From: an uncultured Bacteroidales bacterium
GTDB lineage: Bacteria; Bacteroidota; Bacteroidia; Bacteroidales; Paludibacteraceae
Direction of reading: 5' to 3'
Assembly: GCA_900319645.1 (NCBI GenBank)
Contig: ONPG01000018.1
Coordinates: 1 to 43,528 of the forward strand
DNA: 43,528 bases
Each line of letters opens with the position of its first letter. The stretch's first letter is position 1. Of the stretch, positions 19,201 to 40,613 are shown one piece after another. The notes under the pieces were generated by a model that ran no database searches, was not told where the DNA came from, and worked only from the letters and a program-made list of their open reading frames with translations. The position numbers and the translations under genes are program-made.

Positions 19201-19260
19201 GTTTATTGCGCATAATTTATGATTCTTCCACCTTTTTGGTAAAAAATTGCCCCCATCTTC

Positions 19261-19894
19261 TTATCCGCCCCAGTTGCTTCTGTCGAGGGAACGGTAGGAG
19301 ATCGATTCCAGCAGATGTTTCTTCTGGATGTTCTCTGCGCCTTCCAAGTCGGCAATAGTGCGAGCTACTTTTAAGATGCGGTCGTAGGCGCGGGCGCTCA
19401 AGCCTAATTTGGTGATCGTGAACTCTAACAGTTTGTCGCTTTCCGGGTCCAAGGTGCAGTATTGCCGCACCATTTTCGCACTCATTTGGGCGTTGCAATG
19501 GATAAGGGGACTGCCGGCAAAGCGTTGTTGCTGAATAGCGCGTGCGCGCATCACCCTCTCGCGCATCACAGCCGACGACTCGCTCGGAGTCGTGTCGCGC
19601 AGCTGGTCGTAAGGAACCGCCTCGATCTCGCATTGGATATCTATTCGGTCCATCAGCGGTCCGCTGATACGGCTTAGATAGCGATGAATCTGCGCCGGCG
19701 TACAGGTGCAAGGGTGGGCGGGATTGTTCTCGCCGTAATGTCCGCACGGGCACGGGTTCATAGCCGCTACTAACATGAACGATGCCGGATAATCGACCGT
19801 CTGTTTGGTCCGGGCTACGGTTATTTTCCTGTCCTCTAAGGGTTGACGCATCACCTCCAATGCCGATCGTTTGTATTCGGGCAGTTCATCCAAG
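19261..19894 (-). pseudogene. comM: displaced 3' fragment of comM (Mg-chelatase-like ATPase)
   Basis: This 634-bp stretch matches 31577-32200, the 3' part of the intact comM, at roughly 95% identity by eye. It runs from the [19 protein letters not shown] codons to the stop. Nearly all differences are synonymous: the proteins differ by little more than NIQ/HIQ and the last residues WGG/WAG, which means both copies evolved under selection until recently. No start, Walker A or N-terminal domain is present, so it cannot make ComM. The open frame to 20049 only adds island-derived residues. I interpret it as the host's original comM 3' end, cut off by the island. Confidence 0.9.
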
Positions 19895-19960
19895 CCGCTT
19901 TCTGTGGCTATTATAAAGCGTTTGAATGCCGATCGTTTGTATTCGGGCAGTTCATCCAAG
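19859..19960. repeat. 36-bp direct repeat at the island's left junction (candidate attachment site)
   Basis: Two identical 36-bp copies (19859-19894 and 19925-19960) encode [11 protein letters not shown] on the reverse strand and are separated by a 30-bp unique spacer, giving a 66-bp (22-codon) period. The equivalent site inside the intact comM (about 32177-32212) differs at about four positions. The first copy ends the comM fragment and the second begins the island, so this is the recombination site or its scar. Confidence 0.75.
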
Positions 19961-20081
19961 AATACAGACTTGTGCCATTCATATAATCCGCTGTGTAGGA
20001 GAAGATTAAATATCAAAAAAGCCACTATTTTTGAACTAAAAAATATCATAATTTTAGGGTTGTCGGAGATTTAACTATCTA

Positions 20082-20204
20082 TTATAACTTCCTATACTCT
20101 GCAACTAATTTCTTCAATTCTGCCTTTTCGTTTAATACTACTGCTGCTCGGATTGCCAATAATAGATGCTGCTTCCGGGTGATATCATCTTCTGTCATTA
20201 CCAT
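20082..20204 (-). CDS. possible small protein (40 aa)
   Basis: An ATG at 20204 opens a 40-codon frame beginning MVMTEDDITRKQHLLLAI and ending KLVAEYRKL, a charged amphipathic helix. It has a well-placed promoter (TACCTTTG at 20264-20271, TTTG at 20292-20295). The ribosome-binding site is weak and upstream frame residues also look protein-like, so it may be the 3' remnant of a larger gene. The rest of 19961-20362 shows no other convincing gene. Confidence 0.4.
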   Translation of the reverse strand: MVMTEDDITRKQHLLLAIRAAVVLNEKAELKKLVAEYRKL

Positions 20205-20263
20205 ACAGTTAGAAAAGTCGACATACTCGTCTTTTTATTATTGCTAATTTTCAAAATCTAGTG

Positions 20264-20322
20264 CAAAGGTACAAAAAAAATCTGACATACACAAATTTAT
20301 TAATATATTGTATGTCAGATTT
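20264..20322 (-). promoter_or_regulatory. overlapping terminator hairpin and promoter
   Basis: A 13-bp perfect inverted repeat (AAATCTGACATAC 20278-20290, GTATGTCAGATTT 20310-20322) with a 19-nt loop is followed on the reverse strand by a T-run, a terminator for the AAA ATPase gene ending at 20363. The same stretch holds a promoter pointing the same way: TTTG (20292-20295) and TACCTTTG (20264-20271), so one hairpin arm lies within the promoter spacer. Confidence 0.6.
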
Positions 20323-20362
20323 TAATTTTTGAAACGCAAACTTGAATTTCTAATCAGATTCA

Positions 20363-22021
20363 CTAACAGAATCCAATTCGTCGTGAATTGCTACTACTGA
20401 AGAGTTCTGTCTTGCAAGCTTCGAGTATAGAATCCATTTTCACTTTGTCATCTCCCGATAGTACCGCATTAACGATCTGTTTCCGTGCAATATTCTCAAT
20501 CTGTCCTCCGCTAAATGAATATTGTTTGGCAAGTTCATAAGCTTCTTTTTCAGAAATCTCCGGCAACATACTATGCCATATATGCTGACTTTCATTTGGT
20601 GTTGGCTTCGGGAACTCAATCTTATAGAGGAAGCGGCGTTCAAATGCAGTATCCAAGTTGCCGGTGAGATTAGTAGTCGCAATCATTATACCATCCAACG
20701 TCTCCATTTCCTGTAAGATGATGTTCTGCATAGCGTTCTCCATCTTATCTACACTATCTTCTGCTCCTTCTTTGCGTTTACATAGGATAGCATCAGCCTC
20801 GTTGAATAGCAAGATCGGCGCTAGTTCTGCCTTTTTACAGCTGTTACGGTATCTCTCAAAAATAGCTTTGGTATTCTTCTCTGTATCTCCTACCCATTTG
20901 CTCCGTAAGTTAGGCACATCCACAATCATTATGCCTCTACCTGTCTTACGTGCCAGTTGCAGAACCGATTCTGTTTTTCCTGTTCCCGGAGCGCCGTAGA
21001 AGATACATGCAAAACCACGTCTCATCCCATGTTTCGTTAAGTTTTCTTGCACAACAGAAAAACGTTCTGCTTGCAATAACGTCTCCAACTGTTCTACTTG
21101 TTTAGTAACAGACGGATTGAAGAATAACTTCTTCGGTGTGATTGAATCTGGATTTTTAATATTTTTGTCTTCATTTACGGCTCCACTCGTATCAATATCT
21201 ACTAAAAAACGCTCCTTGGCTGCATTGGACAGTTTCCACGCATCTATCTCCGTTTGACCATTACTATCACTATAATCCACCAATCCCGCTTCTTGTAAAG
21301 GGTGCGTTCCGCTTTCCAATAAGCGTGCATGGGTACGCATCTGCCACCGCTGTTCAAACACATCCTCTATATCACTTTTGATAATATGCTCATCATGGTT
21401 TTGTATATATAAGTTCGTCATTGCAGCGAATACCAGCATATCCTCGAAGTCTGTAATCTTTGCCATTTCACGCGCGATAATAAGGTGTGGATTTTCATTT
21501 ATCAATTGCAATAGAGCCGTTCGGAAATTTTCATACGATATTCGATCCCGGTCTTTTTTCTCCATCAATACGCTTAAATCCCCTATCCATTGTTCAAGTG
21601 TTAGATTTTTATAATCCTTTGGCGTATATACCCTATTTTCACGAACAGCCTCAATCGCCTCATTTGGAATAGAATAAAATACATCGCCATCTGAATCCTT
21701 AAATTGAGACACATATTGAAACTTCATTAATTCTTCAACCGCTGACCAATACGTAAGAATCTTAATTTGATTGCAATCATAAAAATAAGCAAGATCTTTG
21801 ATGCGTATTCGAGAATCAGAGAGGTCATCGAAAAATGCTGAGAAGAGCATCGCAGCATCATCAGACACATTGATTCGTTTGGCAAAAGCCTGAATATACG
21901 GCAAGGCAGCAGTAATACTTGCTTCTGACAGCTTTTTCTTCTTCATAGCACTGATAATTCCATCTAGCAACTTCACCTGCGTGAATTTTTCTAAATCCTG
22001 GGGCATTGTTTTCGTTTTCAT
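20363..22021 (-). CDS. AAA-family ATPase with N-terminal helical region
   Basis: The start at 22021 (MKTKTMPQDLEKF) lies about 60 bp inside a promoter-proximal frame; the extension to 22123 would begin upstream of the -7 box and is rejected. The 552-residue protein has a helical N-terminal half with winged-helix-like segments (about 60-260), then an AAA module: Walker A GAPGTGKT (343-350), Walker B LLFNEAD (404-410), sensor 1 Asn451 in IATTNLTGNLD, arginine finger FERRF (460-464), and a C-terminal lid (GGQIENIARK). The Walker B aspartate is replaced by Asn407, while Glu408 is kept. It is divergent from the WYL operon and probably part of the same island system. Substrate unknown. Confidence 0.85.
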   Translation of the reverse strand: MKTKTMPQDLEKFTQVKLLDGIISAMKKKKLSEASITAALPYIQAFAKRINVSDDAAMLFSAFFDDLSDSRIRIKDLAYFYDCNQIKILTYWSAVEELMKFQYVSQFKDSDGDVFYSIPNEAIEAVRENRVYTPKDYKNLTLEQWIGDLSVLMEKKDRDRISYENFRTALLQLINENPHLIIAREMAKITDFEDMLVFAAMTNLYIQNHDEHIIKSDIEDVFEQRWQMRTHARLLESGTHPLQEAGLVDYSDSNGQTEIDAWKLSNAAKERFLVDIDTSGAVNEDKNIKNPDSITPKKLFFNPSVTKQVEQLETLLQAERFSVVQENLTKHGMRRGFACIFYGAPGTGKTESVLQLARKTGRGIMIVDVPNLRSKWVGDTEKNTKAIFERYRNSCKKAELAPILLFNEADAILCKRKEGAEDSVDKMENAMQNIILQEMETLDGIMIATTNLTGNLDTAFERRFLYKIEFPKPTPNESQHIWHSMLPEISEKEAYELAKQYSFSGGQIENIARKQIVNAVLSGDDKVKMDSILEACKTELFSSSNSRRIGFC

Positions 22022-22081
22022 AAGTCCATTTTTTTTGAAATTCTTATCCCATGCGGGAACGATTATTTTCAATTTTCGCTG

Positions 22082-22089
22082 CAAAGGTA
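22082..22089 (-). promoter_or_regulatory. -7 box of the AAA ATPase promoter
   Basis: Reverse-strand TACCTTTG at 22082-22089; no good TTTG at the expected -33 position, so this promoter may need an activator. It is divergent from the element at 22221-22253. Confidence 0.5.
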
Positions 22090-22220
22090 CAATATACGGC
22101 TCCCACGAAACGGGAGACATCATCTTTTTATTTATTTGTTACAATTTCCACATTTTAGAGTACATTTACCTCAAAAAATTTGTTCAAGTCATTTTTTTTT
22201 ACTAATTTTGCATGCGTATT

Positions 22221-22253
22221 CATTTTGTGGGAGTACAAAACAGTAATTTTGCA
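22221..22253 (+). promoter_or_regulatory. island promoter element P1 (upstream of the WYL operon)
   Basis: The 33 bp CATTTTGTGGGAG..CAGTAATTTTGCA contain a TAATTTTG -7 box (22244-22251). It matches the element at 28592-28624 at 30 of 33 positions. The TTTG (22224-22227) is only 16 bp upstream of the -7 box instead of 20, unlike housekeeping promoters here. Another TAATTTTG lies at 22203-22210. Confidence 0.7.
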
Positions 22254-22271
22254 ACCGAAAATTTAACACGC

Positions 22272-23186
22272 ATGAATAAAAAATCATCAACAGCTTATCT
22301 TTTTGAGTGCTATATCTGGTTGGTAAACACTATCGCACGTGGTCCTATATCTCGCGCGGATATAGATGACAAGTGGGCGCGATCTTCTGTGAATGACTAC
22401 AAAAAGGATTCTATTCCGGAAAGTACGTTTCATCGTTGGCGTGAAACAGTACAGTTACTTTTCGATATTACTATTAAGTGCAATACGCATGGCGAGTATT
22501 ACATTGAGGAGGCTGCGAGCTTACGCGACACAGACATGCGCACACGCTTGTTAAACCTTATGTCTGTTAATAGCCTTCTCAAAGACAGCAAAGGTTTACG
22601 CGACCAGATTCTATATGAACCTGTTCCTTCCGGGGATAAATTCCTATCACCTATCATTGAAGCATTACGAGATAGATGCGCTATTATGTTGACGTATCAA
22701 AGTTTCAGCAAGACGCAACCTACTACATTTGAGGTTGAACCATATTGCCTCAAAATGTTTAAACAGCGTTGGTATATGTTGGCTTTATCTACAGGGATAG
22801 ACGAAATACGCGTTTATTCTCTTGACCGTATCCATGCTATTGAACCGACTTCGCGCAAATATAAGTTACCGAAAGGTTTTGATGCCGAGTTATATTTCAG
22901 AAATACCTATGGCGTTAGCGGTATGGAAGACGATCCGCAAATAGTAGAAATACGCATTGAGGCATACCAGGCTAATTATCTACGCACCTTACCGATTCAT
23001 TCTTCCCAAGAAGAGATAGAGAGGAACGATGATTATTCTGTATTCCGATATAATATTGTTCCAACATTTGAGTTTATGCAGGAACTACGGAAACAAGGCT
23101 CTACGTTGGAAGTCCTCAGTCCCAAGTGGCTAAGAGACGAGTTTACTCAGGAAGCGGTTAACTTATATGGAATGTATAAAGGATAA
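22272..23186 (+). CDS. WYL-domain transcriptional regulator
   Basis: The ATG at 22272 (MNKKSSTAYLFECYIW) is preferred since the longer frame from 22212 would start inside the promoter. The 304-residue protein has an N-terminal helix-turn-helix-like region (about 1-80, with GPISRADIDDKW and IPESTFHRWRETV), a WYL domain (about 121-200, KQRWYMLAL with Trp167-Tyr168) and a C-terminal WCX-like extension (about 220-300). WYL regulators bind ligands, often nucleic acids or nucleotides, and commonly repress defence or DNA-repair loci. As first gene of a seven-gene operon it is the obvious candidate to control both P1 and P2; this control is inferred. Confidence 0.88.
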   Translation: MNKKSSTAYLFECYIWLVNTIARGPISRADIDDKWARSSVNDYKKDSIPESTFHRWRETVQLLFDITIKCNTHGEYYIEEAASLRDTDMRTRLLNLMSVNSLLKDSKGLRDQILYEPVPSGDKFLSPIIEALRDRCAIMLTYQSFSKTQPTTFEVEPYCLKMFKQRWYMLALSTGIDEIRVYSLDRIHAIEPTSRKYKLPKGFDAELYFRNTYGVSGMEDDPQIVEIRIEAYQANYLRTLPIHSSQEEIERNDDYSVFRYNIVPTFEFMQELRKQGSTLEVLSPKWLRDEFTQEAVNLYGMYKG

Positions 23187-23192
23187 GTATGA

Positions 23193-23747
23193 ATGAAAGA
23201 TTTTGTAGCAATAGATTTTGAAACAGCCAATGGCCAACATTCCAGTATTTGTTCTGTAGGTCTGGTTGTAGTTCGAAATGGTGAAATTGTGGATACCTAT
23301 TATTCACTTGTAAAGCCAATGCCGAACTACTATGCCTGGTTCTGTCAAGAAGTGCATGGACTTGACCATTGCGATACGGATAAAGCTCCTATCTTTTCAA
23401 AGGTTTGGGCTGAGATTGAGAATCTGCTTGCACGCGACTTCCAAGATCAATTCCCAAACTCAGATGAGCCATTATGCGACAAGTTATCCAACTCCGTTAT
23501 TCTTGTTGCACACAATGCCCGATTTGACCAATTGTGCTTGAATGCTGCATTTTCGACTTATGGTATCCACGATCGTTATTACACCTTCTTGGATACGCTG
23601 GCTCAATCGCGTCGTCATTTTGGGAATGCCCTCCCGAACCACCAACTACAAACTGTAGCAGCAGCTTGTGGTTATGACTTAAAGAATCACCACCATGCAC
23701 TTGCTGATGCAGAGGCGTGCGCATGGATAGCAAGAGAAATATTGTAA
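23193..23747 (+). CDS. DEDDh 3'-5' exonuclease (DnaQ/RNase T-like)
   Basis: The 184-residue single-domain protein carries all catalytic residues of the DEDDh family: Asp8 and Glu10 in VAIDFETAN (Exo I), Asp112 in AHNARFD (Exo II), and His167 with Asp172 in NHHHALADAEA (Exo III). Such enzymes degrade single-stranded DNA or RNA with two metal ions. It starts 6 bp after the WYL stop. Standalone DnaQ-like exonucleases occur in several defence loci and next to WYL genes. The substrate cannot be told from sequence. Confidence 0.9.
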   Translation: MKDFVAIDFETANGQHSSICSVGLVVVRNGEIVDTYYSLVKPMPNYYAWFCQEVHGLDHCDTDKAPIFSKVWAEIENLLARDFQDQFPNSDEPLCDKLSNSVILVAHNARFDQLCLNAAFSTYGIHDRYYTFLDTLAQSRRHFGNALPNHQLQTVAAACGYDLKNHHHALADAEACAWIAREIL

Positions 23748-23760
23748 AAATTTCACACAC

Positions 23761-25506
23761 ATGATAGATTTTAACTTTTATTGGATAGCGGATGCCATTA
23801 AAAAGATATATCCGAATAAAGAAATCAATGAACACATTTACTATATTCGTCAATATAATAGATGGATACACATTTCCACTCCTATTGATGATAATTGCAT
23901 TCATTATGAACTAAGTTCACAGCATCTTTCGTTACATTTTGAATATTCGTCATCAGTAGGAGGATATCAAGCATACGTTGCTTTGGTAGACCACTTAACC
24001 CATTTGACAGAAAAAGATGCTCGTTTTCATTGGAGAGAGTTATCTAATGGCTATGGTTGCGATAGCGTACAACCGATTAATAACCCAGATGAATTGATAA
24101 CTATTCTACAAGATTTCATCACTTTTTTTGATCATGCCATTGAGCAGTATTTTTTGCAGCAGACGCCTTCAATACAAAACATCGAAATTGAACAAGAACA
24201 ATGTATTGTCAAAGAAGATGTTTCTATTCAAACTCGAACTCTACTTGATATATACAAGATGAATTTACACATTCCTGTATATCAACGGATCTATTGCTGG
24301 ACAGAAGATAATGTAAGGTGTTTATTGGACGATCTGGAATTACATATAGAAACAAAATCAAGTAACGTTCCATACAGATTAGGTACTATTATCTTGCATT
24401 ATCATGATAATTGCTATGATATAATTGATGGTCAACAACGATTAGTGACGCTGGCATTATTACTTCAAAATATAGGAGTCGTTACAGGGCTTTTAAAAGA
24501 GCAGTTTACATCCAGTGAGGCAAAACAATATATTGCATATAATAAATCTTTAATCGCAAACTATGTGCAAAAATATATTGCGCACAAAGACAAGTTTATA
24601 CAATTTTTATTACATCGCGTAGAATTTGATGTACTAATGCTACATAATTCCTCTTTAGATTTGGCATATACATTTTTTTCTAACGAAAATTCACGAGGGG
24701 TTAGTTTGACTGATTATGATTTACTAAAAGCACATCACCTGCGCTTTATACCAGCAACGTATGAGCAACAATCGCAAAAAGCAGCCGAGAATTGGAATGC
24801 AATGATAGAGAGAGGAAGACGGCAAATTAATGACTATGATACATTACCAGATTATGCTCACACACTTGATACATTTATTTTTCAGTTGCGCCACTGGATG
24901 CGCAAACAAAATATTGAGATATATCCATCCGATCGACATATAAAGCGCGAGTATGAGGCGGCTCCTATTATGCCAGAACTTCCTCCATTTGGAGAGACTT
25001 TCTACTTTAACGAACCTATTCAAGGAGGAACACATTTCTTTACGTTTGTTGAGCATCATTTGTCCTTATATCGGCAATTTATCCAAACAAAAGAATATAA
25101 AGCTTTAAACAATGGGTTGAATGAGTGGGGCAGCTGCCGGTGGTATAAAGAAACGATTAGCGCGATTCTCTTTGCATATTATGAGAAATTTGGGCAATAC
25201 TGCCTTACTGATGCGATGGTTTTAATTATGCGAGTTATGTTAGAACACCGATACAGCATTTCTCGTGCGAATCGAAACGCAGTGGCTGAGTATGCTGCTG
25301 AAATGGGACTAGTACTTATGCTGGATCAAGCAACATCACCTACTTTCTTTATTGCAGAAGTATACAATTTATGTCGAGAGTTCCCACGGAGAATGTTGCA
25401 AGAATTAAGACCTGTTCAAATACGAATGAGGCAAAGTGTTAACTATATTAACGAGCAAATGGAACAATATATATACGTTAATTCTATAAAAAATATCTTA
25501 TCATGA
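23761..25506 (+). CDS. DUF262 (GmrS-like) protein with novel N-terminal domain, no HNH
   Basis: The 581-residue protein has an N-terminal region of about 150 residues that I do not recognise. A DUF262 domain follows: IPVYQRIYCWTEDNV (171-185), YRLGTIIL and the ParB-like signature DIIDGQQR (about 220-227). In GmrSD and BrxU this domain hydrolyses NTP to gate cleavage of modified DNA. Unlike its downstream partner it has no visible DUF1524 HNH-like end; the C-terminal 250 residues are helical. Its stop overlaps the next ATG by 4 bp, implying coupled translation and perhaps a complex. Confidence 0.8.
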   Translation: MIDFNFYWIADAIKKIYPNKEINEHIYYIRQYNRWIHISTPIDDNCIHYELSSQHLSLHFEYSSSVGGYQAYVALVDHLTHLTEKDARFHWRELSNGYGCDSVQPINNPDELITILQDFITFFDHAIEQYFLQQTPSIQNIEIEQEQCIVKEDVSIQTRTLLDIYKMNLHIPVYQRIYCWTEDNVRCLLDDLELHIETKSSNVPYRLGTIILHYHDNCYDIIDGQQRLVTLALLLQNIGVVTGLLKEQFTSSEAKQYIAYNKSLIANYVQKYIAHKDKFIQFLLHRVEFDVLMLHNSSLDLAYTFFSNENSRGVSLTDYDLLKAHHLRFIPATYEQQSQKAAENWNAMIERGRRQINDYDTLPDYAHTLDTFIFQLRHWMRKQNIEIYPSDRHIKREYEAAPIMPELPPFGETFYFNEPIQGGTHFFTFVEHHLSLYRQFIQTKEYKALNNGLNEWGSCRWYKETISAILFAYYEKFGQYCLTDAMVLIMRVMLEHRYSISRANRNAVAEYAAEMGLVLMLDQATSPTFFIAEVYNLCREFPRRMLQELRPVQIRMRQSVNYINEQMEQYIYVNSIKNILS

Positions 25507-27338
25507 CATATTTAAAATTTACTCCAAGCATTATCGTTGAAAATGATTTATATTTTTCGATTCCCATATATCAACGATTATTTGAATGGACTGACGAAAA
25601 TGTGAGTCAGTTATTAAATGATTTGTATAAAGCCCATAATACAAATAGCGACTATTACATTGGGATGCTGACTTCAAATACAGAAGACGGTGAAACCCAA
25701 CTTGTAGACGGACAACAAAGGTTTACCGTTATGATGTTAATGGGAAGTGTGATGCAAAAATATAGCCTTCAGTGGCACGATTTTCTTCTGCACAATAACC
25801 AACCACGATTACATTTGGCTTCGAGGAATGATGACGAACAGTATTTGCAATTGTTGATCGCTCAAAAGTTTGATAATACAGATTATGTGAACCTTAAAAT
25901 GCAAAAAGCTGCTCAAACGATAGCCGAGTTCATGGATAATCTCGAAGAGAATAGTCGTATAGATTTTGCTGATTATGTATTCAACCACCTTAGCTTCTTT
26001 ATTACTAAATTACCTAATGGCTATAACGCATACGATTTAAATAAACATTTTGAGCGAATGAACTGTAGTGGGAAAAACCTAGAACAACACGAAATTCTTA
26101 AGGTTAAGTTAATAAGCCAATTAGGAACTAATGTCCCATTATATATGCAACTTTGGAATAAATTGTCTGATGTGGATACGCCACTTATTCGAAAGCGTAC
26201 ATATTGGAACGAGAATGAAGCCAGTTTGGGTAATCGAAAGAATATGGCAATGAATCTTTCATTGGAAACGCTTCCTCAGCAATTAGACGTTCTAAATGGG
26301 TTGCGCGAAGAGTCATTAGAAGAAGCAGAGACAATTGAAAATATCAAACCTTCCCCAAATAAGCCAAGATCAGAAATGCATATTGGTAATAGTTCTAGAT
26401 GTGTCTTACGTTTTCCTTATTTGCTTTTACAAACACTATATTATTATTTAGGTCAACAACTCCAAGATGGAGACACTATTCAAGATTTCTTTAATCCTAA
26501 TAATTTACTGACAACATTCCAAAAGTATTTGCCATATGAAGGAAATGATGTAAGTGCTGAACATTTGCACGCCTTTTTAAATTTGTTACTCAAATGTCGT
26601 ATTAGACTTGATTTATCATTTATACGCACTCTTGAATATGGTTATTCTCTAGACATGAATGCAGAGGAAGGCGACGATAATTTAAGAGAATTACTTATGT
26701 ATGAGTCGTTCCTATACGTATCATCATCCAATTATACTAATTATAGATGGTTTGGGTGGTTAATGGAATATATGCTTCCTCTAACACAAATACCTGCGCC
26801 GCAAGATCTATTCCATTTCCTTATTGACAAATGTGATAAAGCAAATCCATTACCACCTATCGAGGATTTACATTTTGGAGAAGAAATTCGCTATTGGTTC
26901 TGGAGATTAGATTTTTGTTTATGGCAGAAACGAAATAAGCTATTTTGCAATCCTGAAGATGAAAAATATTTGCGTGTAATAAATAATTATGTTTTCACGC
27001 GTAGTAGAAGCATTGAACATATTGCTCCTCAACAACCGAAAACAGAATCCATATTAAAATGGGATGAAAATGACGATGAGGATATAAAATTACGTAATAG
27101 TTTCGGTAACTTGTGCATGATCTCGCAGAGTTTGAACTCCTCTTTAAGCAATTCATCTTACCAAGAAAAACGAGCTCATGTTGAATCATACTTTTCAAGC
27201 GTAACAGGAACCATAGAAAGTCTTAAATTGCTAATGGTGTACCGTGATTATAATGATTGGGACAAACTGTATATTTCAGACCACGGAGAAAAGATGTATG
27301 GATTATTAAAAGAAAATCTGTCTAAGGAATCCTGCTAA
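25503..27338 (+). CDS. DUF262-DUF1524 protein (GmrSD-type restriction nuclease)
   Basis: The 611-residue protein starts with a compact DUF262 domain: IPIYQRLFEWTDENVSQLL (20-38), the DGQQR signature (69-73) and the FERMNCSGKNLEQHEILK motif near 180-200. It ends in a DUF1524 HNH-like nuclease domain: SRSIEHIAPQQ with His506, then NSFGNLCMISQSLNSSLSN (about 532-550). Families of this architecture include GmrSD, a type IV enzyme cutting glucosylated hydroxymethylcytosine DNA, and related anti-phage nucleases. A pair of DUF262 proteins, only one with a nuclease end, is unusual and suggests a heteromer. Confidence 0.87.
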   Translation: MTYLKFTPSIIVENDLYFSIPIYQRLFEWTDENVSQLLNDLYKAHNTNSDYYIGMLTSNTEDGETQLVDGQQRFTVMMLMGSVMQKYSLQWHDFLLHNNQPRLHLASRNDDEQYLQLLIAQKFDNTDYVNLKMQKAAQTIAEFMDNLEENSRIDFADYVFNHLSFFITKLPNGYNAYDLNKHFERMNCSGKNLEQHEILKVKLISQLGTNVPLYMQLWNKLSDVDTPLIRKRTYWNENEASLGNRKNMAMNLSLETLPQQLDVLNGLREESLEEAETIENIKPSPNKPRSEMHIGNSSRCVLRFPYLLLQTLYYYLGQQLQDGDTIQDFFNPNNLLTTFQKYLPYEGNDVSAEHLHAFLNLLLKCRIRLDLSFIRTLEYGYSLDMNAEEGDDNLRELLMYESFLYVSSSNYTNYRWFGWLMEYMLPLTQIPAPQDLFHFLIDKCDKANPLPPIEDLHFGEEIRYWFWRLDFCLWQKRNKLFCNPEDEKYLRVINNYVFTRSRSIEHIAPQQPKTESILKWDENDDEDIKLRNSFGNLCMISQSLNSSLSNSSYQEKRAHVESYFSSVTGTIESLKLLMVYRDYNDWDKLYISDHGEKMYGLLKENLSKESC

Positions 27339-27347
27339 AAATTTAAA

Positions 27348-27857
27348 ATGACCACCTATATAGCAGACATAGACCACTATTCGCAAGTCATAGCACAAAT
27401 TCCCAAGGTTAAGCGCCTACTTTGGATTGCGACTGCGGATATGAAGGATTTGTATATTGAAAAGAAGGACAAATCTATTGTCCCACTTCTTCAAGTTCTT
27501 AATGACTTGGTGAAAAAAGGTGTTGAGGTGCGGCTCCTTCATGCCAAAGAGCCAGGACAACCATTCAGGGAAGACTTCGATAAATATCCAGCTTTATGGG
27601 GAGGCATGGAGCGTCACCTATGTCCGCGTGTACACATGAAGCTAATCGTAATGGATAGCGAATTGGTATATATCGGTTCCGCAAATCTGACTGGAGCCGG
27701 CATGGGCATGAAATCATCTGTCAATCGCAATTTTGAAGCCGGTATATTAACTGATGAGCCGGGATTCATTGATTCTGCCATGAGCCACTTCGATTCTGTA
27801 TGGGAAGGCACTCATTGCAAGAAGTGCGGACGCAAAGTGTTTTATAAAATAATCTAA
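27348..27857 (+). CDS. single-HKD phospholipase-D family nuclease
   Basis: The 169-residue protein has one PLD motif: HMKLIVMD with His96, Lys98 and Asp103, followed by YIGSANLTGAG with Ser111 and Asn113. Single-motif PLD proteins act as homodimers; relatives include Nuc and the BfiI nuclease domain. A C-terminal HCKKCGRK pair (Cys157, Cys160) could be half of a zinc site completed in a dimer. It sits 9 bp after the DUF1524 gene and is the third nuclease-like protein of the operon. Confidence 0.82.
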   Translation: MTTYIADIDHYSQVIAQIPKVKRLLWIATADMKDLYIEKKDKSIVPLLQVLNDLVKKGVEVRLLHAKEPGQPFREDFDKYPALWGGMERHLCPRVHMKLIVMDSELVYIGSANLTGAGMGMKSSVNRNFEAGILTDEPGFIDSAMSHFDSVWEGTHCKKCGRKVFYKII

Positions 27858-27860
27858 AAC

Positions 27861-28208
27861 ATGATAGATATGGAAGATGCATTTGATTACGTTGTAAACG
27901 AAGTGGCAAAAATCGCTTTAAGAAAGCTCAATATGGATGAAAACGACTCTGGTAACGTATTCCTTATGGGGCATATCCTGGTTGGGCTTTGTGGCTCAGA
28001 TAGTGATGAAATCATCGCAGCAAGATCTCTTGGCTATCTTATGATGTCCGGACGTTATCTACAGGAAGAAGAAGTCAAGAAGATGGTTGCCGAGACAAAA
28101 GAGAAATGCGGTATGCTGGTACTTGGTCTTCAGATTGCTTATGACACCATAGAAGAATATGGTTGTTCAGGAATTGAAGCATTAGCGCATATACATCAAT
28201 TTTTATAA
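27861..28208 (+). CDS. helical protein of unknown function (115 aa)
   Basis: The gene starts 3 bp after the PLD stop. The product begins MIDMEDAFDYVVNEVAKIAL and appears all-helical, with a hydrophobic core segment (VFLMGHILVGL) and another near the end (GMLVLGLQIAYDTI). I recognise no domain. Its tight spacing shows it belongs to the operon; a TerB-like or immunity-type helical bundle is a guess. Confidence 0.7.
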   Translation: MIDMEDAFDYVVNEVAKIALRKLNMDENDSGNVFLMGHILVGLCGSDSDEIIAARSLGYLMMSGRYLQEEEVKKMVAETKEKCGMLVLGLQIAYDTIEEYGCSGIEALAHIHQFL

Positions 28209-28219
28209 TAAGTTTTACT

Positions 28220-28567
28220 ATGCCAAAAATGATTACATTCGGCAGTGAGATGATAAGGATCAATCCTGCCAAGAATTGTATTGAGTATTCCACAAATGCA
28301 GGTAGATCTTGGATATCAAGATATACAAGCACGTCGTGTGGAACGTTCATTGATTTGCTACCGTTTGGTAGTGAGATATTAGCTATTACCAATAGAGGTA
28401 TTTACTATTCCTCTAATCAAGGGCGCAGCTGGATATCAAGATACACTAGTAGTTCATGTGGTGAGTTCAATACGCTCATGGACGGAGGTTCAGAAATTTT
28501 AGCAGAGACTTCTAGAGGACTTTATTATAGCACCAATGCCGGACGTTCGTGGATAAAACGTAGATAA
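28220..28567 (+). CDS. Asp-box (BNR-like) mini-protein with three repeats
   Basis: The 115-residue protein is made of three near-identical units of about 42 residues, each with a motif like YSTNAGRSWISR followed by a strand around GSEILA. The motif resembles the Asp-box SxDxGxxW of sialidase and BNR propellers, with Asn or Gln in place of the Asp. Three blades cannot close a propeller, so it probably oligomerises or is an add-on for another protein. It is last in the P1 operon. Function unknown; ligand recognition is a plausible guess. Confidence 0.75.
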   Translation: MPKMITFGSEMIRINPAKNCIEYSTNAGRSWISRYTSTSCGTFIDLLPFGSEILAITNRGIYYSSNQGRSWISRYTSSSCGEFNTLMDGGSEILAETSRGLYYSTNAGRSWIKRR

Positions 28568-28591
28568 AAATTCAAAATTATTGTCAACCTC

Positions 28592-28624
28592 CATTTTGTG
28601 AGAGTATAAAGCAGTAATTTTGCA
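28592..28624 (+). promoter_or_regulatory. island promoter element P2 (upstream of the FtsK-like operon)
   Basis: This 33-bp element matches P1 (22221-22253) at 30 positions, including TAATTTTG (28615-28622) and CATTTTGTG. The short gap after the BNR gene and the match mark a second, co-regulated transcription unit. Confidence 0.72.
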
Positions 28625-28662
28625 GCGTGATTCGAAGGAGTCGCGCTGTAATTTTATATGTT

Positions 28663-28974
28663 ATGTGCAAGAAAATTCGTATAGAACAAGAATACTGGAG
28701 TCACAGGCATGACTTCCCTATTGAGGAAATTTGGAATACAGAAAATGCTATTGCAGCTTTTATTGCACCTAGGCTAAAAGCGTTTAAGGATTTGAAGAAG
28801 CATGGATTCGCCCCGGAGATGAATAGTGAGCGACAATGGAATAGCTCTATTCAGAAAATGATAGATGCCTTCGAAATATTAAGTCGCCCGTATACTCCAA
28901 CTGACAACGAAGATCCAATTGTAGAGGAAGGTCTTGACTTGTTCCGCAAGTATTTCCGTAATCTTTGTGATTGA
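28663..28974 (+). CDS. small phage-like protein (103 aa)
   Basis: The ATG at 28663 (MCKKIRIEQEYWSHR) is chosen because the frame from 28627 (GTG) begins at the predicted transcript start. The protein reads PRLKAFKDLKKHGF in the middle and IVEEGLDLFRKYFRNLCD at the end. From memory this pattern (W..PRLK.FK, then KMI.AFE.L, then GL.LF.KYF..L) is that of small uncharacterised proteins common in phages and prophages. It is first in the P2 operon. Function unknown; phage origin suggests a structural mimic or sensor role, which is speculative. Confidence 0.65.
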   Translation: MCKKIRIEQEYWSHRHDFPIEEIWNTENAIAAFIAPRLKAFKDLKKHGFAPEMNSERQWNSSIQKMIDAFEILSRPYTPTDNEDPIVEEGLDLFRKYFRNLCD

Positions 28975-29001
28975 GAATACTAACTATATATTGCAATAAT
29001 C

Positions 29002-29955
29002 ATGGATAACTATCAATTACCTTCTGATTCTATGTTGAAGACATACCAACCAGAGTATGTGATTCAACGTTACGTCTCAATGCATTCAGTCATCGCGTCA
29101 GATAGATTTCTGTACTCTCAAACGATGTCCCTTCCTGTTGCGATAGGGAGAAGCATTCAAAATTCGCAGCTTGTATATGTTTTTGACTTAGCGAAGATGC
29201 CACACTTGCTGATAGCCGGAGCGTGTGGACAAGGTAAGACAAATGCAGTTAGAGCAATTATAACCTCTTTGCTTTTTAGAAAACGACCTTCAGAACTGAA
29301 GTTTGTGATTATGGATTCTTCCTGTATTGAATACAAATCAATGCGCTATATAAGCCAAAGATATATTGCTTCTACACCGAATAACAAAGAGCCTATTATA
29401 ACCAAATATAGTCAAGTAATTGATGTGCTCAACTCATTAACCATAGAAGTAGAGAAACGAAAAATGTTGATAGAAGGAACAAACTGCGCCAACATTGACG
29501 AATATAATAAGCTAATACGAGATAGCTCCAAAGCATTACCTCACCTCATTGTTATTATAGATGAATATGGTGATTTCGCAATACAAGGTGGAAAAGAGAC
29601 AGAACGTCTTATCGTTAATTTTGCTGGCAGGGCGCATGAAGTAGGAATTCATTTCATTCTTACAACTCAGCGCCCGGCAACAAAAGTCGTAACAAATGCA
29701 ATTAAAGAATGTTTTCGTGCAAAAATCGCATTCCGAGCAGAAACCTCATCTGACTCTGCCAACATAATTGATCTTGATGCAGCCACAAATCTTTCAAGAG
29801 GAGAAATGCTTATGGTTGGAAAAGGATTAGGTTGTATTGCTCAAGCCCAATGTGCCCTTATTGAAAGGCAGGAATTCGAGGAGTTTATTAAGTATATTGT
29901 TAATCAACCCTATACGGCATCTCAGTATATATTGCCAAATAGTGAAACAAACTAA
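29002..29955 (+). CDS. minimal FtsK/SpoIIIE-type DNA translocase motor
   Basis: The 317-residue protein starts with NYQLPSDSML, like the linker that opens the FtsK motor, and holds the RecA-like motor alone: HLLIAGACGQGKT with Walker A GACGQGKT (73-80), Walker B IVIIDEYGDF (183-192), and GRAHEVGIHFILTTQRP (209-225) followed by IKECFRAKIAFRAETSSDSANIID. There are no membrane segments and no gamma DNA-orienting domain. The normal DPK.VEL strand is changed to MDSSCIEYKSM. It looks like a derivative of chromosomal FtsK recruited to this island, probably pumping or remodelling DNA with the small downstream proteins. A conjugation coupling protein is the alternative, but no relaxase or pilus gene is present. 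Confidence 0.88.
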   Translation: MDNYQLPSDSMLKTYQPEYVIQRYVSMHSVIASDRFLYSQTMSLPVAIGRSIQNSQLVYVFDLAKMPHLLIAGACGQGKTNAVRAIITSLLFRKRPSELKFVIMDSSCIEYKSMRYISQRYIASTPNNKEPIITKYSQVIDVLNSLTIEVEKRKMLIEGTNCANIDEYNKLIRDSSKALPHLIVIIDEYGDFAIQGGKETERLIVNFAGRAHEVGIHFILTTQRPATKVVTNAIKECFRAKIAFRAETSSDSANIIDLDAATNLSRGEMLMVGKGLGCIAQAQCALIERQEFEEFIKYIVNQPYTASQYILPNSETN

Positions 29956-29968
29956 TGATTATTACTAT

Positions 29969-30226
29969 ATGGATTTACAATCAGTCAATGACCAGTTAGA
30001 ATTACTGCGTCTCAAAGAAATGTTCATGTCTAATATCGACATTCGCAGCAAAATGGCTACTTTAATTTGTAGAGAAAGTCCATTCCGGGATTTCTGTAAA
30101 CTAACTCATTGCGAGCCACGCCACGCAGAGATGTTCTCTCGGACGTTATTATTCGACATTATTCTCACTCCTGAAGAAATTTCCGCAGAACGTGAAAGAT
30201 TAGAAAGAATCAAGAAAAGTTTGTAA
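29969..30226 (+). CDS. helical protein of unknown function (85 aa)
   Basis: The ATG at 29969 (MDLQSVNDQLELLRLKEM) lies 13 bp after the FtsK-like stop; a longer frame from 29837 overlaps that gene and is rejected. The product is helical and charged, with two Cys (CRESPFRDFCKLTHC region) and a C-terminal Glu/Arg helix. It resembles no family I know. The position suggests an accessory subunit of the motor. Confidence 0.65.
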   Translation: MDLQSVNDQLELLRLKEMFMSNIDIRSKMATLICRESPFRDFCKLTHCEPRHAEMFSRTLLFDIILTPEEISAERERLERIKKSL

Positions 30227-30229
30227 GTT

Positions 30230-30496
30230 ATGGAAGACATTAAATCTTGCGCCGAAGGATTGCAGAACAAAGTAAAACTTTGGCAAACTGTAGAACCAAA
30301 CGAAAAGGAGTTGAGAGAGTTTAGCCGTGACTATCTGGCATTACGAAGAGACATTCGTAAACTTTCTTCAGATCTAGATAAAATGTATTATTCCTACCAA
30401 CAAATGTATGCACGGTGGAATAATAAACAAGATAGTGAACAGCAGTCCTCTTCCTTGGAATGGTTGAAGCAGCATCAATTAGAAATCAACTTTTAA
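30230..30496 (+). CDS. coiled-coil protein of unknown function (88 aa)
   Basis: It starts 3 bp after the previous stop. The sequence MEDIKSCAEGLQNKVKLW followed by heptad-like LREFSRDYLALRRDIRKLSSDLDKMYYSY suggests a single coiled-coil hairpin. A small bridging or regulatory subunit is likely, but function is unknown. Confidence 0.65.
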   Translation: MEDIKSCAEGLQNKVKLWQTVEPNEKELREFSRDYLALRRDIRKLSSDLDKMYYSYQQMYARWNNKQDSEQQSSSLEWLKQHQLEINF

Positions 30497-30501
30497 CAGA
30501 T

Positions 30502-31530
30502 ATGGAAAACAGTCGTACTATAGATGATGAGGTATTGAACCTATCATGGAAAGAGCAAGTATTGTATCTTGCTAAAAAAGGTGCAGAAGAACGCATGGTA
30601 AGAGCACTAATTCGCACTATGCCGGAATCCGAATGGCAACAATTAGAGGAAGAATGTACACCAAGTGTAGTCCGTATCGCATTACAAACCCTTTATTGGG
30701 AAAAGAGTAATGTGAACTATGAGTATGAAGTTCAAGAACAGCCCAAGTACAGACCCGTATCTGAGGTTCTTGAAGAGTTCTTAGGAACCGGCAAACGGCA
30801 AGTAGCTCGAAAGGAATTACAAATCCGGTTGCCCTATGTAACCGCGCTGGAGCAGAAACAAATAATATATGCTTTCTTGGACTCTGATGCAAAATTAGAC
30901 AGAGAATATGTCTGTAAATATCTTGACTCGCACTATGAGTTAATGTATGAAAAGGCTATCGAGACTATATGGGGATTACACCATGATGCTGAATCCGCAA
31001 AAGTGCTTATACACTATGCTTCCGATAAGTTTGTTGCTGAGAACTTTGATCAATTGGCATCGGACTATCGTTATCTGCCGGTTCGGTTAAGAATGCCTAA
31101 AGACTATCCGGTAGATCGTTCTCAATTGGAACAGCATGAGTTCCTTCATCTTTGTGCGCGGCAACAGTTACCCATTACAGAACATGAGGCATTTGCTGTA
31201 TTGTCCAATACCTTATTGCTACAGCTAATCCGACACCCACATTTTTCTTCATCGGAGTCGCTTTATAAACTACCTTACGTAAGTACGATTATAAACGATA
31301 TTGGTCGCCTCGGATTCCGTAATATCATCGTGCGTTTCTTTGTTGAAAACGAACGAACCAAGCCTTTGTTTACCGATGGCGATCCGTATCAGGTAAGTAT
31401 GACTATTAGAGATCAAATCTATCACGATGGTTTTTACTACTATCGCGATGTGCTGAATACAAAAGAAGATATCTCCAGAAGGGAATTAGCGAAACGATAT
31501 AAGGAACATCCGGAATATTTTGATGAATAG
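30502..31530 (+). CDS. large helical protein of unknown function (342 aa)
   Basis: The ATG at 30502 (MENSRTIDDEVLNLSW) is 5 bp after the previous stop; a longer frame from 30460 overlaps that gene. The product is predicted all-helical with repeated 30-40-residue helical pairs (about 50-230), resembling HEAT or TPR solenoids but without a firm match, then a distinct C-terminal part containing YKLPYVSTIINDIGRLGFRN. I see no catalytic motif. It is last in the P2 operon and could be the adaptor that links motor and target. Confidence 0.7.
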   Translation: MENSRTIDDEVLNLSWKEQVLYLAKKGAEERMVRALIRTMPESEWQQLEEECTPSVVRIALQTLYWEKSNVNYEYEVQEQPKYRPVSEVLEEFLGTGKRQVARKELQIRLPYVTALEQKQIIYAFLDSDAKLDREYVCKYLDSHYELMYEKAIETIWGLHHDAESAKVLIHYASDKFVAENFDQLASDYRYLPVRLRMPKDYPVDRSQLEQHEFLHLCARQQLPITEHEAFAVLSNTLLLQLIRHPHFSSSESLYKLPYVSTIINDIGRLGFRNIIVRFFVENERTKPLFTDGDPYQVSMTIRDQIYHDGFYYYRDVLNTKEDISRRELAKRYKEHPEYFDE

Positions 31531-31536
31531 AAAGAA

Positions 31537-31565
31537 GAAACGCGCACTTAGTACGCGTTTCTTTC
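31537..31565 (+). terminator. intrinsic terminator at the island's right end
   Basis: GAAACGCG (31537-31544) pairs with CGCGTTTC (31554-31561) around a 9-nt loop, followed by a T-rich tract. It separates the P2 operon from the convergent comM stop at 31577. Confidence 0.8.
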
Positions 31566-31576
31566 ATTTATAACTC

Positions 31577-33157
31577 TTACCCTGCCCAGTTGCTTCTGTC
31601 GAGGGAACGGTAGGAAATCGATTCCAGCAGATGTTTCTTCTGGATGTGCTCTGCGCCTTCCAAGTCGGCAATAGTGCGCGCTACTTTTAAGATGCGGTCA
31701 TAGGCGCGGGCGCTCAATCCTAATTTGGTGATCGTGAACTCTAACAGTTTGTCGCTTTCCGGATCCAGGGTGCAGTACTGTCGTACCATCTTCGCACTCA
31801 TCTGGGCGTTGCAATGGATAAGGGGACTGCCGGCAAAACGTTGTTGCTGAATAGCGCGTGCGCGCATCACCCTCTCGCGCATCACAGCCGACGACTCGCT
31901 CGGAGTCGTGTCACGCAGCTGGTCGTAAGGAACCGCTTCGATCTCGCATTGGATATCTATTCGGTCCATCAACGGTCCGCTGATACGGCTCAGATAGCGA
32001 TGAATCTGCGCCGGCGTACAGGTGCAAGGGTGGGCGGGATTGTTCTCGCCGTAATGTCCGCACGGGCAAGGGTTCATAGCCGCCACGAGCATGAACGATG
32101 CCGGATAATCGACCGTCTGTTTGGTCCGGGCTACGGTTATTTTCCTGTCCTCTAAGGGCTGTCGCATCACCTCCAATGCCGAGCGTTTGTATTCGGGCAG
32201 CTCGTCAAGGAAGAGCACGCCGTTGTGCGCCAGACTGATCTCGCCCGGATGCGGGTTCTGACCTCCGCCAACCAGCGCGACGTCGGTGATGGTGTGGTGA
32301 GGACTGCGGAAAGGACGTTGGACAATCAGCGAACCCCGTGAGGCGGTTTTCTTGTTCAGCAGTCCCGCTACCGAGTGGATCTTGGTGGTCTCTAAGGCTT
32401 CCTCCAACGACAAAGGAGGCAGGATTGACGGCAATCGTTTCGCTATCATCGACTTGCCGGCTCCCGGAGGACCGACCATCAACATATTGTGCCCGCCTGC
32501 GGCGGCTACCTCCATCGCGCGTTTCACTTTGTATTGCCCGCGTACGTCGGAGAAATCGATGTCGGAAGGATAGGCGGATTCTTTGAACATGGCTTGTATA
32601 TCGACTTGGGTCGGAGCGAAACGGTCTTCCGGATCTAACTCGTTTTTCATATCTCCGTTCAGGAAGTGCACCACCTCCAGCAAATCCGTCATTCCAAACA
32701 CATCCAATCCCTCGACTACCGCGGCTTCTTCTGCGTTGGAGGCAGGGAGGATAATCCCTTTGTAGCCTTCTTGTCGTGCGCAAAGGGCAATAGGCAGAGC
32801 ACCTTTGATAGGCTGCAAGGATCCGTCCAGCGAGAGTTCGCCGGCAATCAGATATTTCCCCAATTCCCTCATCTTGACTTTTTCGCAACCGGCAAGCATG
32901 CCGATGGCGATAGGCAGATCGAAAGCCGCTCCTTCCTTTTTGATGTCCGCCGGCGCCATGTTGATTGTAAAACTGCGGCGGAGCGTATCAAATCCGTTCA
33001 CGGTCAAGGCTGCAAGAATACGTTCGTGCGATTCCTTAACCGCGTTATCCGGCAGTCCGACCAAGGTAAAATCAAAACCCGGAACCGAATGAACCTCGAT
33101 GGTCACGGGAACCGCATCAATGCCGAGAGCCGTTGCGCTGAAAATTTTTATTAGCAT
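31577..33157 (-). CDS. comM: Mg-chelatase-like AAA+ ATPase ComM (YifB), intact, 3' end supplied by the island
   Basis: The ATG at 33157 ([18 protein letters not shown]) gives 526 residues, the normal length. ComM is a hexameric helicase that promotes branch migration of incoming DNA during natural transformation in Gram-negatives. The protein has the N-terminal ChlI/Lon-like domain (1-170), Walker [10 protein letters not shown], Walker B region [11 protein letters not shown], the zinc-like [17 protein letters not shown] segment and the C-terminal helical domain. The 5' two-thirds are the host's; from LDELPEYKR to the stop the DNA is the island's copy. It follows the small gene at 33173 by 15 bp. 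Confidence 0.94.
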
Positions 33158-33172
33158 AATTCTCAATGTCAA

Positions 33173-35335: not shown

Positions 35336-35501
35336 TTTTTCTTCTTATTTGCGCGCATTAGGCATATACCCGTTCTATAATTATCGTGCATGCGAGTGCC
35401 TGCCTATCGGCAAAAACGCCCCTCCAAGAGCCGCATTTAACCCACCTAACAACCCTAAAATCAAAAAAAAGACACAAAAAATGCATTTTTTTGCAAAAAT
35501 A

Positions 35502-35533
35502 TTTGGTCATATCAAAAAAAAGCAGTACCTTTG
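35502..35533 (+). promoter_or_regulatory. promoter of the tRNA-Arg gene
   Basis: TTTG (35502-35505), 20-bp spacer, TACCTTTG (35526-35533). It may also feed rplS by read-through of the tRNA terminator. Confidence 0.75.
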
Positions 35534-35578
35534 CACCCGCTTTTGAAAAAATGCTCATCGAGCACTCACGAAAGCGAC

Positions 35579-35652
35579 GGTCCATTAGCTCAACTGAATA
35601 GAGTACCACACTACGGATGTGGGGGTTGCAGGTTTGAATCCTGCATGGATCA
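35579..35652 (+). tRNA. tRNA-Arg (anticodon ACG)
   Basis: All arms fold by hand: acceptor GGTCCAT/ATGGATC, D stem GCTC/GAGT, anticodon stem CCACA/TGTGG with loop CTACGGA (anticodon 35613-35615), T stem GCAGG/CCTGC, discriminator A. CCA is not encoded. The ACG anticodon is edited to ICG in bacteria to read CGU, CGC and CGA. Confidence 0.93.
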
Positions 35653-35653
35653 C

Positions 35654-35678
35654 AAAGGGGTTGAAAGCCTCTTTTTTT
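35654..35678 (+). terminator. terminator after tRNA-Arg
   Basis: AAAGGGG (35654-35660) pairs with CCTCTTT (35668-35674, one G-U) around a 7-nt loop, and the T-run continues. Confidence 0.65.
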
Positions 35679-35779
35679 ATCGCGCAAAGCCTCTGGCGAT
35701 TGCATTAGGTGCGGTTCGCAACCGAATAGTAGTGTATGCTTTGTGAGAATGTACTAATCCATAAAACAAACAAACAGAA

Positions 35780-36133
35780 ATGGATTTGATGAAGATTGCC
35801 GAGCAAGCTTTTGCCGGCGAGAAAAAAGAGTTCCCGGCTTTCAAAGCGGGAGATCAGATTACGGTTGGATACCGTATCAAAGAGGGTAACAAAGAGCGTG
35901 TTCAGGAGTTCCGTGGCGATGTAATCGCTATTCACGGAGAGGGGGACAAAAAACGTTTCACCGTCCGCAAAATGAGCGGTAACGTAGGTGTTGAGCGTAT
36001 CTTCCCGATGGACAGCCCCTTCATTGAGAGCATCACCATCAACAAGTATGGTAAAGTACGTCGCTCCAAGATCTATTATCTGCGTGAGCGCACCGGTAAG
36101 AAAGCTCGTATCCAAGAGCGCCGTGCTAAATAA
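35780..36133 (+). CDS. rplS: 50S ribosomal protein L19
   Basis: The 117-residue protein is full length. L19 sits at the 30S-50S interface. Typical features are the start MDLMKIAEQAFAGEKKEF, the SH3-like core (FKAGDQITVGYRIKEGNKER, VQEFRGDVIAI) and the basic end KIYYLRERTGKKARIQERRAK. No strong promoter is seen in the 100 bp after the tRNA terminator, so expression probably depends partly on read-through. Confidence 0.97.
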   Translation: MDLMKIAEQAFAGEKKEFPAFKAGDQITVGYRIKEGNKERVQEFRGDVIAIHGEGDKKRFTVRKMSGNVGVERIFPMDSPFIESITINKYGKVRRSKIYYLRERTGKKARIQERRAK

Positions 36134-36160
36134 AAAGAGGCTTCGGCCTCTTTTTTTTTG
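36132..36160 (+). terminator. intrinsic terminator of rplS
   Basis: AAAAAGAGGC and GCCTCTTTTT enclose a TTCG tetraloop, followed by more T; the stem begins at the stop codon. Confidence 0.9.
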
Positions 36161-36600: not shown

Positions 36601-36605
36601 TTTTA

Positions 36606-36831: not shown

Positions 36832-36852
36832 AGTTGTAAAAGTTTAAATTTG

Positions 36853-37194: not shown

Positions 37195-37201
37195 AGTTGT
37201 T

Positions 37202-39307: not shown

Positions 39308-39351
39308 GTTTAAAGCATAATACCAATTTCTATAGCACCCTATATTAGGTG

Positions 39352-39483: not shown

Positions 39484-39511
39484 AATTTTGCCTCCTTTTT
39501 TGTTTGACGAT

Positions 39512-39546: not shown

Positions 39547-39559
39547 TAAGGAGAATGTC

Positions 39560-40609: not shown

Positions 40610-40613
40610 AATT

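Follow-up and report, generated by a model that had tools for sequence, protein, structure and literature searches.

A probable mobile mosaic defence island at comM of a Bacteroidales bacterium, with a swappable effector slot and putative WYL control

Two described kinds of element come close to the locus considered here. The regulator BrxR is reported to have a box at the promoter of its own gene and another at a further operon, and to be found in mosaic islands together with a GmrSD-family enzyme (PMC9122601). The Tsy and Tn6022 transposons (TnsF) are described as targeting the conserved Walker-B region of comM (PMC10293859). The locus compared with them lies in the draft genome (48 contigs, 84% complete) of an uncultured Bacteroidales bacterium of the Paludibacteraceae (assembly GCA_900319645.1), on contig ONPG01000018.1 (C14), the whole of which, 43,528 bp, is the window referred to below. 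Here, a low-GC island of ~11.6 kb (window 19934–31576) sits at comM and holds 13 genes, g1 to g13. We consider it probable that this is a mobile, mosaic defence island under the control of a WYL regulator, with an exchangeable effector slot and a site of entry in comM. It is seen as a movable, mix-and-match island because relatives of the bacterium have other genes in place of the two central ones, which are the likely weapons. The comparisons drew on 151 genomes of the genus, 150 genomes of the family and, for an order-wide survey of comM, 393 genomes.

All 13 open reading frames claimed in a preliminary description of this DNA, made from the sequence alone, are present in place, and the defence-like content that it saw in them is supported by matches to hidden Markov models (HMMs), with Pfam run on all 13 proteins, PADLOC and NCBIfam on ten (all but g9, g11 and g12) and PHROGs likewise on ten (all but g1, g3 and g5). 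The first gene, g1, encodes an AAA ATPase (E 6.6e-22) on the reverse strand (20363–22123), and all others lie on the forward strand. The operon that follows opens with g2 (22272–23186), a regulator with WYL (E 4.3e-16) and WCX (E 3.8e-9) domains that matches solved WYL and CapW relatives, and continues with g3 (23193–23747), a DEDDh 3'-5' exonuclease (RNase_T/DEDDh, E 4e-14). The two slot genes, g4 (23761–25506; GmrSD_N and DUF7834) and g5 (25503–27338; GmrSD_N and GmrSD_C), both encode DUF262 proteins, with GmrSD_N scores of 95.5 bits (E 6.2e-27) and 88.7 bits (E 7.5e-25), respectively, against a curated cut-off of 33.2; their translations contain the DUF262 motif DGQQR, as IDGQQR and VDGQQR. 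The GmrSD_C/DUF1524 match is confined to g5 (E 1.4e-16, 61.1 bits vs a cut-off of 23; none in g4), where this part also matches solved SspE and another DUF262 protein. Downstream lie g6 (27348–27857), a phospholipase D-type (PLD) nuclease with one HKD motif (PLDc_2, E 1.9e-14), g7 (27861–28208), a small and probably helical protein without family (low-confidence model, pLDDT 61; noise-level matches only), and g8 (28220–28567), a BNR/Asp-box mini-protein whose match is weak (E 4.2e-6, 26.4 bits, below the cut-off of 27). A second forward operon comprises g9 (28663–28974), a small protein with a weak PHROG match (phrog_11543, 2.6e-6), g10 (29002–29955), a minimal FtsK/SpoIIIE motor domain (E 1.8e-29), g11 (29969–30226) and g12 (30230–30496), two small proteins without assigned family whose Pfam matches all fall below cut-off, and g13 (30502–31530). 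For g13, four libraries gave no family match; its model is all-helical (pLDDT 84.8), with a best Foldseek E of 0.21 and no match at E 0.001, and a scaffold role, which would suit such a model, is a guess. The spacing is as tight as had been noted, with gaps of 3–13 bp inside the WYL operon and 4 bp shared by g4 and g5 (25503/25506). The likely starts of g1 (~22021), g2 (22272), g9 (28663), g11 (29969) and g13 (30502) were taken from the promoter position and from homologues in the congener G182; for g2, 22272 is preferred because the called start at 22212 puts the promoter described below inside the gene.

The same island is found at the same site in G182, with the same gene order for ten backbone proteins, which are 99% (g1), 98% (g2), 96% (g3), 96% (g6), 94% (g7), 86% (g9), 79% (g10), 98% (g11), 95% (g12) and 93% (g13) identical to those of the window. 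When the DNA is compared in 250-bp windows, identity holds at 90–100% between the island end and the g3 stop codon, where it breaks, and returns within the first codons of g6. Between these gene-exact borders G182 encodes two different DUF262 proteins (631 and 816 aa) in place of g4 and g5, the first of which matches g4 in the DUF262 region only (34%). Further to the right, identity is 76–78% in the region of the FtsK gene and 89–98% over the last 1.75 kb. In a third genome, G197, g1 (75%, in two pieces), g2 (82%) and g3 (57%) precede a slot that holds a PDC-S26-type nuclease and a 297-aa protein, and g6 (82%), g7 (48%) and g8 (70%) follow it before the contig ends. At the level of sequence, these alignments show a conserved backbone (the AAA gene; WYL-DEDDh-slot-PLD-g7; g9-FtsK-g11-g12-g13) around an exchangeable two-gene slot. 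The single functional module of the preliminary description thus survives as a co-transferred set with shared promoters, and not as a fixed system of 13 genes, which is contradicted by the swap of g4-g5 and the loss of g8 in G182 as well as by the other pair in G197. Regarding g1, it reads LLFNEADA at Walker B, the usual acidic residue before E being replaced, a feature common to the G182 and G197 homologues.

The island stands out by its composition, with a GC content of 34–40% across 20–31 kb of the window vs 50–58% in the adjoining flanks (9–20 kb and 32–35 kb), and by a repeated comM end on both sides; the preliminary description had called the gene set correctly and had missed both of these. 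The full-length comM/yifB gene (31577–33172, reverse strand) adjoins the right border, which coincides with its stop codon, and the last 632 bp of the gene (31575–32206) recur to the left of the island as a second copy of the 3' end (19259–19890, reverse strand) with 95.4% DNA and 99% protein identity, that is, with 29 mismatches, 24 of them at third codon positions, and no gaps. This copy starts at the codons for an 11-residue stretch assigned to Walker B by its motif. A 36-nt core is present at these codons (copy a, 19859–19894), again 30 bp away (copy b, 19925–19960), beyond which the island end common to G182, G266 and G209 begins, and within the full comM (32175–32210, 86% identical to copies a and b), in each case on the reverse strand. 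Capture through Xer/dif was set aside, as the core does not seem to resemble a dif site. The unit common to the window and G182 spans 19934–31576, with DNA identity dropping at both borders. Because the 3' end is present twice, a full comM is retained, and the island is likely to have entered at the Walker-B codons while sparing the gene. An open frame (19261–20049) joins the displaced comM end in frame to a leader encoded by the island, and at four junctions (window, G182, G266 and G209) an island end reading ...WHKS leads into the comM codons; in the window it stands in front of core copy b. Fusions of this kind between leader and comM (..WHKS-..LDELPEYKR..) were noted at 19261–20049 of the window and at 4582–5307 of L250, 11828–12550 of L249 and 9942–10676 of L253; a shortened ComM without its N-terminal part might be made from such a frame and interfere with the full protein.

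Of the 151 genus genomes, three (the own one, G182 and G266) have the 3' end of comM a second time, starting at the same codons and on the same contig as the full gene. In G209 a displaced comM fragment accompanies the same kind of island end on a contig that stops within the AAA gene, and in G197 a shortened comM fragment lies beside the same gene set. The arrangement is thereby present in whole or part in 5/151 genomes, a count that is probably low and is uncertain because the assemblies are drafts and 36/151 genomes gave no match at all. Five further genomes have two matches, either through a second full-length copy on another contig (G156, G174 and G179) or through split or short matches (G257 and G273), and comM fragments sit at contig ends in G225, G252, G184 and G222. 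The cargo of G266 is unrelated to the 13 genes except for a WYL gene (49%), even though its island end and its comM site match. More than one comM C-terminal match was obtained in 11/393 genomes across the order. In G095, from another genus, comM is followed by three more 3' fragments, one of them partial, each located after the same ~38-bp sequence; the small, unrelated cargo between the fragments (L136, G095:C55) includes a Y1 transposase-like protein, Fic and an AAA_14-DUF4143 protein, and a small gene pair there resembles RelBE by eye. In G093 (L137, G093:C11), comM is split by a TniA/TniB/TniQ-type transposon that lies between codons ~279 and 304.

The control of the island is suggested by a 33-nt putative promoter/operator box. 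Box 1 (22221–22253, forward strand) ends 18 bp before the WYL start, and box 2 (28592–28624, forward strand) precedes the g9-FtsK operon. The two are identical at 30 of 33 positions, so that the matching promoters of the preliminary description are confirmed as matching sequences; box 1 holds a perfect inverted repeat, TTTTGT-N6-ACAAAA (by eye). The box includes the Bacteroidetes -7 promoter element, and part of it is therefore general, the specific part being the spacer. In its generalised form (CAYYTTRTRRRAGYN8GTAMYTTTGCA) it gave 45 strict sites in 28/151 genus genomes and none with a reversed-pattern control, and in the own genome it occurs exactly twice, before g2 and before g9. A WYL protein at least 55% identical to g2 is encoded in 32/151 genomes, and the box was found in 24 of these 32 vs 4 of the other 119 (Fisher p 3.6e-17, an optimistic value because the genomes share ancestry). 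Furthermore, a weight matrix built from 16 box sites, with a score threshold set by the analyst, placed a box 17–62 bp before the start of 25/29 close WYL genes (30 loci were taken, one of which was too short), several of which had also supplied matrix sites, whereas none was placed in 1,450 shuffled upstream regions, in which base composition only was preserved, or in the 25 upstream regions of WYL genes of <50% identity. The box is hence statistically tied to the WYL subfamily of g2, its function as promoter or operator being predicted from position and pattern. The context was examined for 34 of the 45 strict sites, and directly downstream of them lie WYL genes (11), g13 relatives (2), a g11 relative (1) and the g9-FtsK operon (1). 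As separate observations, what follows the box in L296, L297 and L299, from three genomes, is a protein of ~203 aa that looks secreted, and beyond it a g11-type match, and L274 (G194:C5) combines three WYL genes and four boxes with g13, g11 and DEDDh relatives within 20 kb.

Whether the three transcription units form one obligate multi-gene defence machine, as the preliminary description had it, can be judged from the distribution of their genes. In favor of this are the preserved backbone order in G182, the one box common to both forward operons, and G032, a genome of another genus in which relaxed boxes (7 and 8 mismatches to box 1) precede both a WYL-DEDDh operon and a short FtsK gene. However, besides the swap of the central pair and the loss of g8, WYL, DEDDh, the DUF262 pair and PLD occur together without a short FtsK gene in 20-kb stretches of G120, G048, L232 and L241. 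Relatives of g13 were found in 16/151 genomes of the genus and in 9/150 of the family sample (own included), where five of the eight outside the own genome lie within two genes of a WYL gene, and no short FtsK relative was detected in the 7.5–20 kb stretches taken from 13 of the 14 genus genomes other than the own and G182; g11 and g12 relatives likewise occur without it. At 30 close-WYL loci (~1.5 kb on each side, own included), the neighbors include DEDDh (9), g12 (6), g8 (4), g7 (3), PLD (1) and g13 (1), and relatives of g7, g8, g11, g12 and g13 recur in other WYL-headed combinations, which again speaks against a fixed set. Judged by the refutation criterion of the preliminary description, the first operon is independent, while the complete second operon was found only with the first (in the window and in G182), its members also occurring apart. 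An obligate machine is therefore an unlikely explanation.

The cargo behind WYL-DEDDh pairs varies as well in the few loci scanned for it, being a DUF262 pair in L198, an SNF2 helicase with a type IIG enzyme in L230, and a 2101-aa protein with a CoiA-like nuclease domain in L214. Relatives of g4 occur in 13/150 genomes of the family sample (own included), with 48% identity in G014 and 26–39% over parts of the protein in the others, and g1-type ATPases are common (46/150 genomes at 1e-25, shorter and more distant matches included). Two genes were rejected as markers of the set: a DEDDh gene has a WYL gene within 400 bp upstream on the same strand at only 16 of the best 80 of 539 stretches encoding a relative, and FtsK matches at 1e-20 in 135/150 genomes, mostly through frames of ~800 aa taken as housekeeping FtsK. 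A phage origin was likewise set aside, as megablast gave no match in phages and neither a confirmed relative of g13 nor a match to the g2 pattern turned up in viral contigs, and so was a plasmid origin, the plasmid WYL matches all being <60% identical; FtsK matches in 193 phage records are also all <60% identical (best 40%). A close relative of the PLD nuclease (74%) is encoded elsewhere in the own genome (L156, 15179–15718, on G000:C31), with no WYL or DEDDh match in its 18.6-kb stretch.

The mosaic make-up, the repeated use of comM as a landing site and the serial comM fragments of G095 with their unrelated cargo could also be accounted for by a passive island, in which unrelated defence genes accreted at a permissive site and the promoters are alike by descent without functional interplay. 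This is improbable in our view, since the box accompanies the WYL subfamily at similar distances in many genomes, even where the other parts of the module differ. That the backbone (AAA, DEDDh, PLD, FtsK and the small proteins) works to move or maintain the element, with the slot pair as the only defence cargo, is more doubtful still: the backbone does travel together while the slot varies, and certain conjugative elements use FtsK-like motors to transfer DNA, but in none of the 13 proteins does Pfam recognize an integrase or relaxase family, and the G266 element has at the same comM site only the WYL gene of the backbone families, so that the backbone is not needed there.

Several points weigh against the favored reading of a mobile, WYL-controlled island with an exchangeable slot. 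With respect to control, the inverted repeat is imperfect in box 2 (by eye), the weight-matrix box is missing upstream of 4/29 close WYL genes, and four of the 28 box genomes (G160, G195, G225 and G226) have a box without a scored close WYL gene, although in G225 a WYL gene is cut by the contig end; one box in G160 precedes a housekeeping-like mreB-type frame (by eye). No member of the 13 families lies directly downstream of 19 of the 34 boxes examined, some of which have g11, g13, WYL, DEDDh or DUF262 matches within 1.5 kb; in G239, for instance, the DUF262 match begins ~0.3 kb downstream and was counted as other. At least one WYL-DEDDh pair, that of L219, moreover has a TonB receptor of the ordinary kind behind it. 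With respect to mobility, Pfam reveals no recombinase family among the 13 island proteins, and Phage_integrase has no match on C14, its matches in the own genome lying on C3, C30 and C32. Past the comM stop codon, the identity between G182 and the window falls to 73% and less, which contradicts the idea that cargo and comM 3' end always move as one. By its sequence, the full-length comM of G182 seems to be a chimera: its C part is 80–81% identical to the window, G134, G126 and G266, its N part 68–71% to its six best matches, and the displaced fragment 67–69% to its eight best. Over codons 331–510, windows of the C part are 53–77% identical to G146 and 70–93% to the comM of the window, but 30-aa windows along the gene give no sharp break point. 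Host comM ends thus seem to have been replaced by foreign ones, yet the comM end of the window did not come along with the recently transferred cargo, so that at least two events are needed. Finally, the defence role is inferred from the domains and the company of the genes.

If the favored reading holds, the WYL protein would bind the promoters of its own gene and of the FtsK operon and hold both low, and infection would release this repression, by analogy with what has been described for BrxR-type regulators. The DUF262 pair would be the main effector, an NTP-dependent type IV nuclease of the GmrSD/BrxU kind that may cut incoming, probably modified, phage DNA, while the DEDDh and PLD nucleases would process DNA ends. 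As an accessory arm, the FtsK motor and the small proteins that go with it would move or clear DNA. A change of the slot pair could then alter recognition while leaving the regulator and the nucleases unchanged. A wider possibility, which we advance tentatively, is that in this genus the WYL subfamily and the 33-nt box constitute a portable immune operating system, such that modules carrying the box (slot-type effectors, g13, g11, the FtsK operon and others, within one island or on scattered contigs) join a common infection-triggered regulon; in the comM islands the backbone would stay fixed and only the effector pair would be swapped, at gene-exact borders. A puzzle of 13 genes is in any case now divided into testable parts, namely a regulator with its box, an effector slot between conserved nuclease genes, and a gene-sparing comM site. 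With the box, more genes enlisted in this way can be sought at little cost in related genomes, and the slot pairs are natural swap experiments on type IV-like DUF262 nucleases. In view of the comM duplication one may also ask what recombinase, or what process linked to transformation, produces insertions that spare the gene at the TnsF/Tsy site.

Beyond comM, a second low-GC stretch of the window (35358–43444, 33–45%) adjoins a tRNA-Arg gene (35579–35653) and encodes a PIF1-like helicase, an AAA_15 ATPase and a YhcG/DUF1016 nuclease; it is perhaps another defence-type island.

The preliminary description knew of no named system with this gene set, and in the ten proteins scanned with PADLOC and NCBIfam pieces of many systems, but no single named one, are indeed recognized. 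A survey of the literature at the level of titles and abstracts, with few subscription papers, likewise found no description of the gene set, of the WYL link or of a comM insertion in Bacteroidales. The protein encoded by g1 resembles IetA only in its ATPase domain, and membership in IetAS was rejected, its score being 95.9 bits vs a cut-off of 510 and no peptidase family, as expected for the IetS partner, being found among the 13 proteins by Pfam. Similarly, the PLD nuclease g6 is DrmC-like, but its 45.3 bits compare with a cut-off of 133, and none of the island proteins matches a Pfam family expected for the DISARM helicase and methylase genes (DrmA/DrmB), so that DISARM was rejected as well. 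Neither SspABCD nor DndABCDE was found among the ten proteins scanned with PADLOC or in Pfam for all 13, PADLOC yielding only partial SspE/SspH-like stretches; with the modification genes not found in the proteins scanned, membership in Ssp or Dnd was not retained. With GmrSD, BrxU and SspE the locus shares DUF262 in both slot proteins and DUF1524 in g5, but here there are two separate DUF262 proteins, of which only one has DUF1524. Like the insertions of Tsy and TnsF elements, the island sits at the Walker B of comM; unlike them, it keeps a full comM through the duplicated 3' end instead of interrupting the gene, and Pfam recognizes no TnsF, tyrosine recombinase or Tni family among its 13 proteins. 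The likeness extends furthest to the BrxR-regulated islands (BREX with BrxU, pEFER), which have in common with the present one a WYL and WCX regulator, a GmrSD-family enzyme, a mosaic make-up and, here by sequence, a box before the regulator gene as well as before another operon. They differ in that no BREX genes were seen in the island studied here, that its box is a different, promoter-like 33-mer, and that the likely effector consists of two DUF262 proteins whose genes fill an exchangeable slot. By analogy, the island would be a variant of a regulated type already known, joining BrxR-like control to the comM site of TnsF and Tsy.

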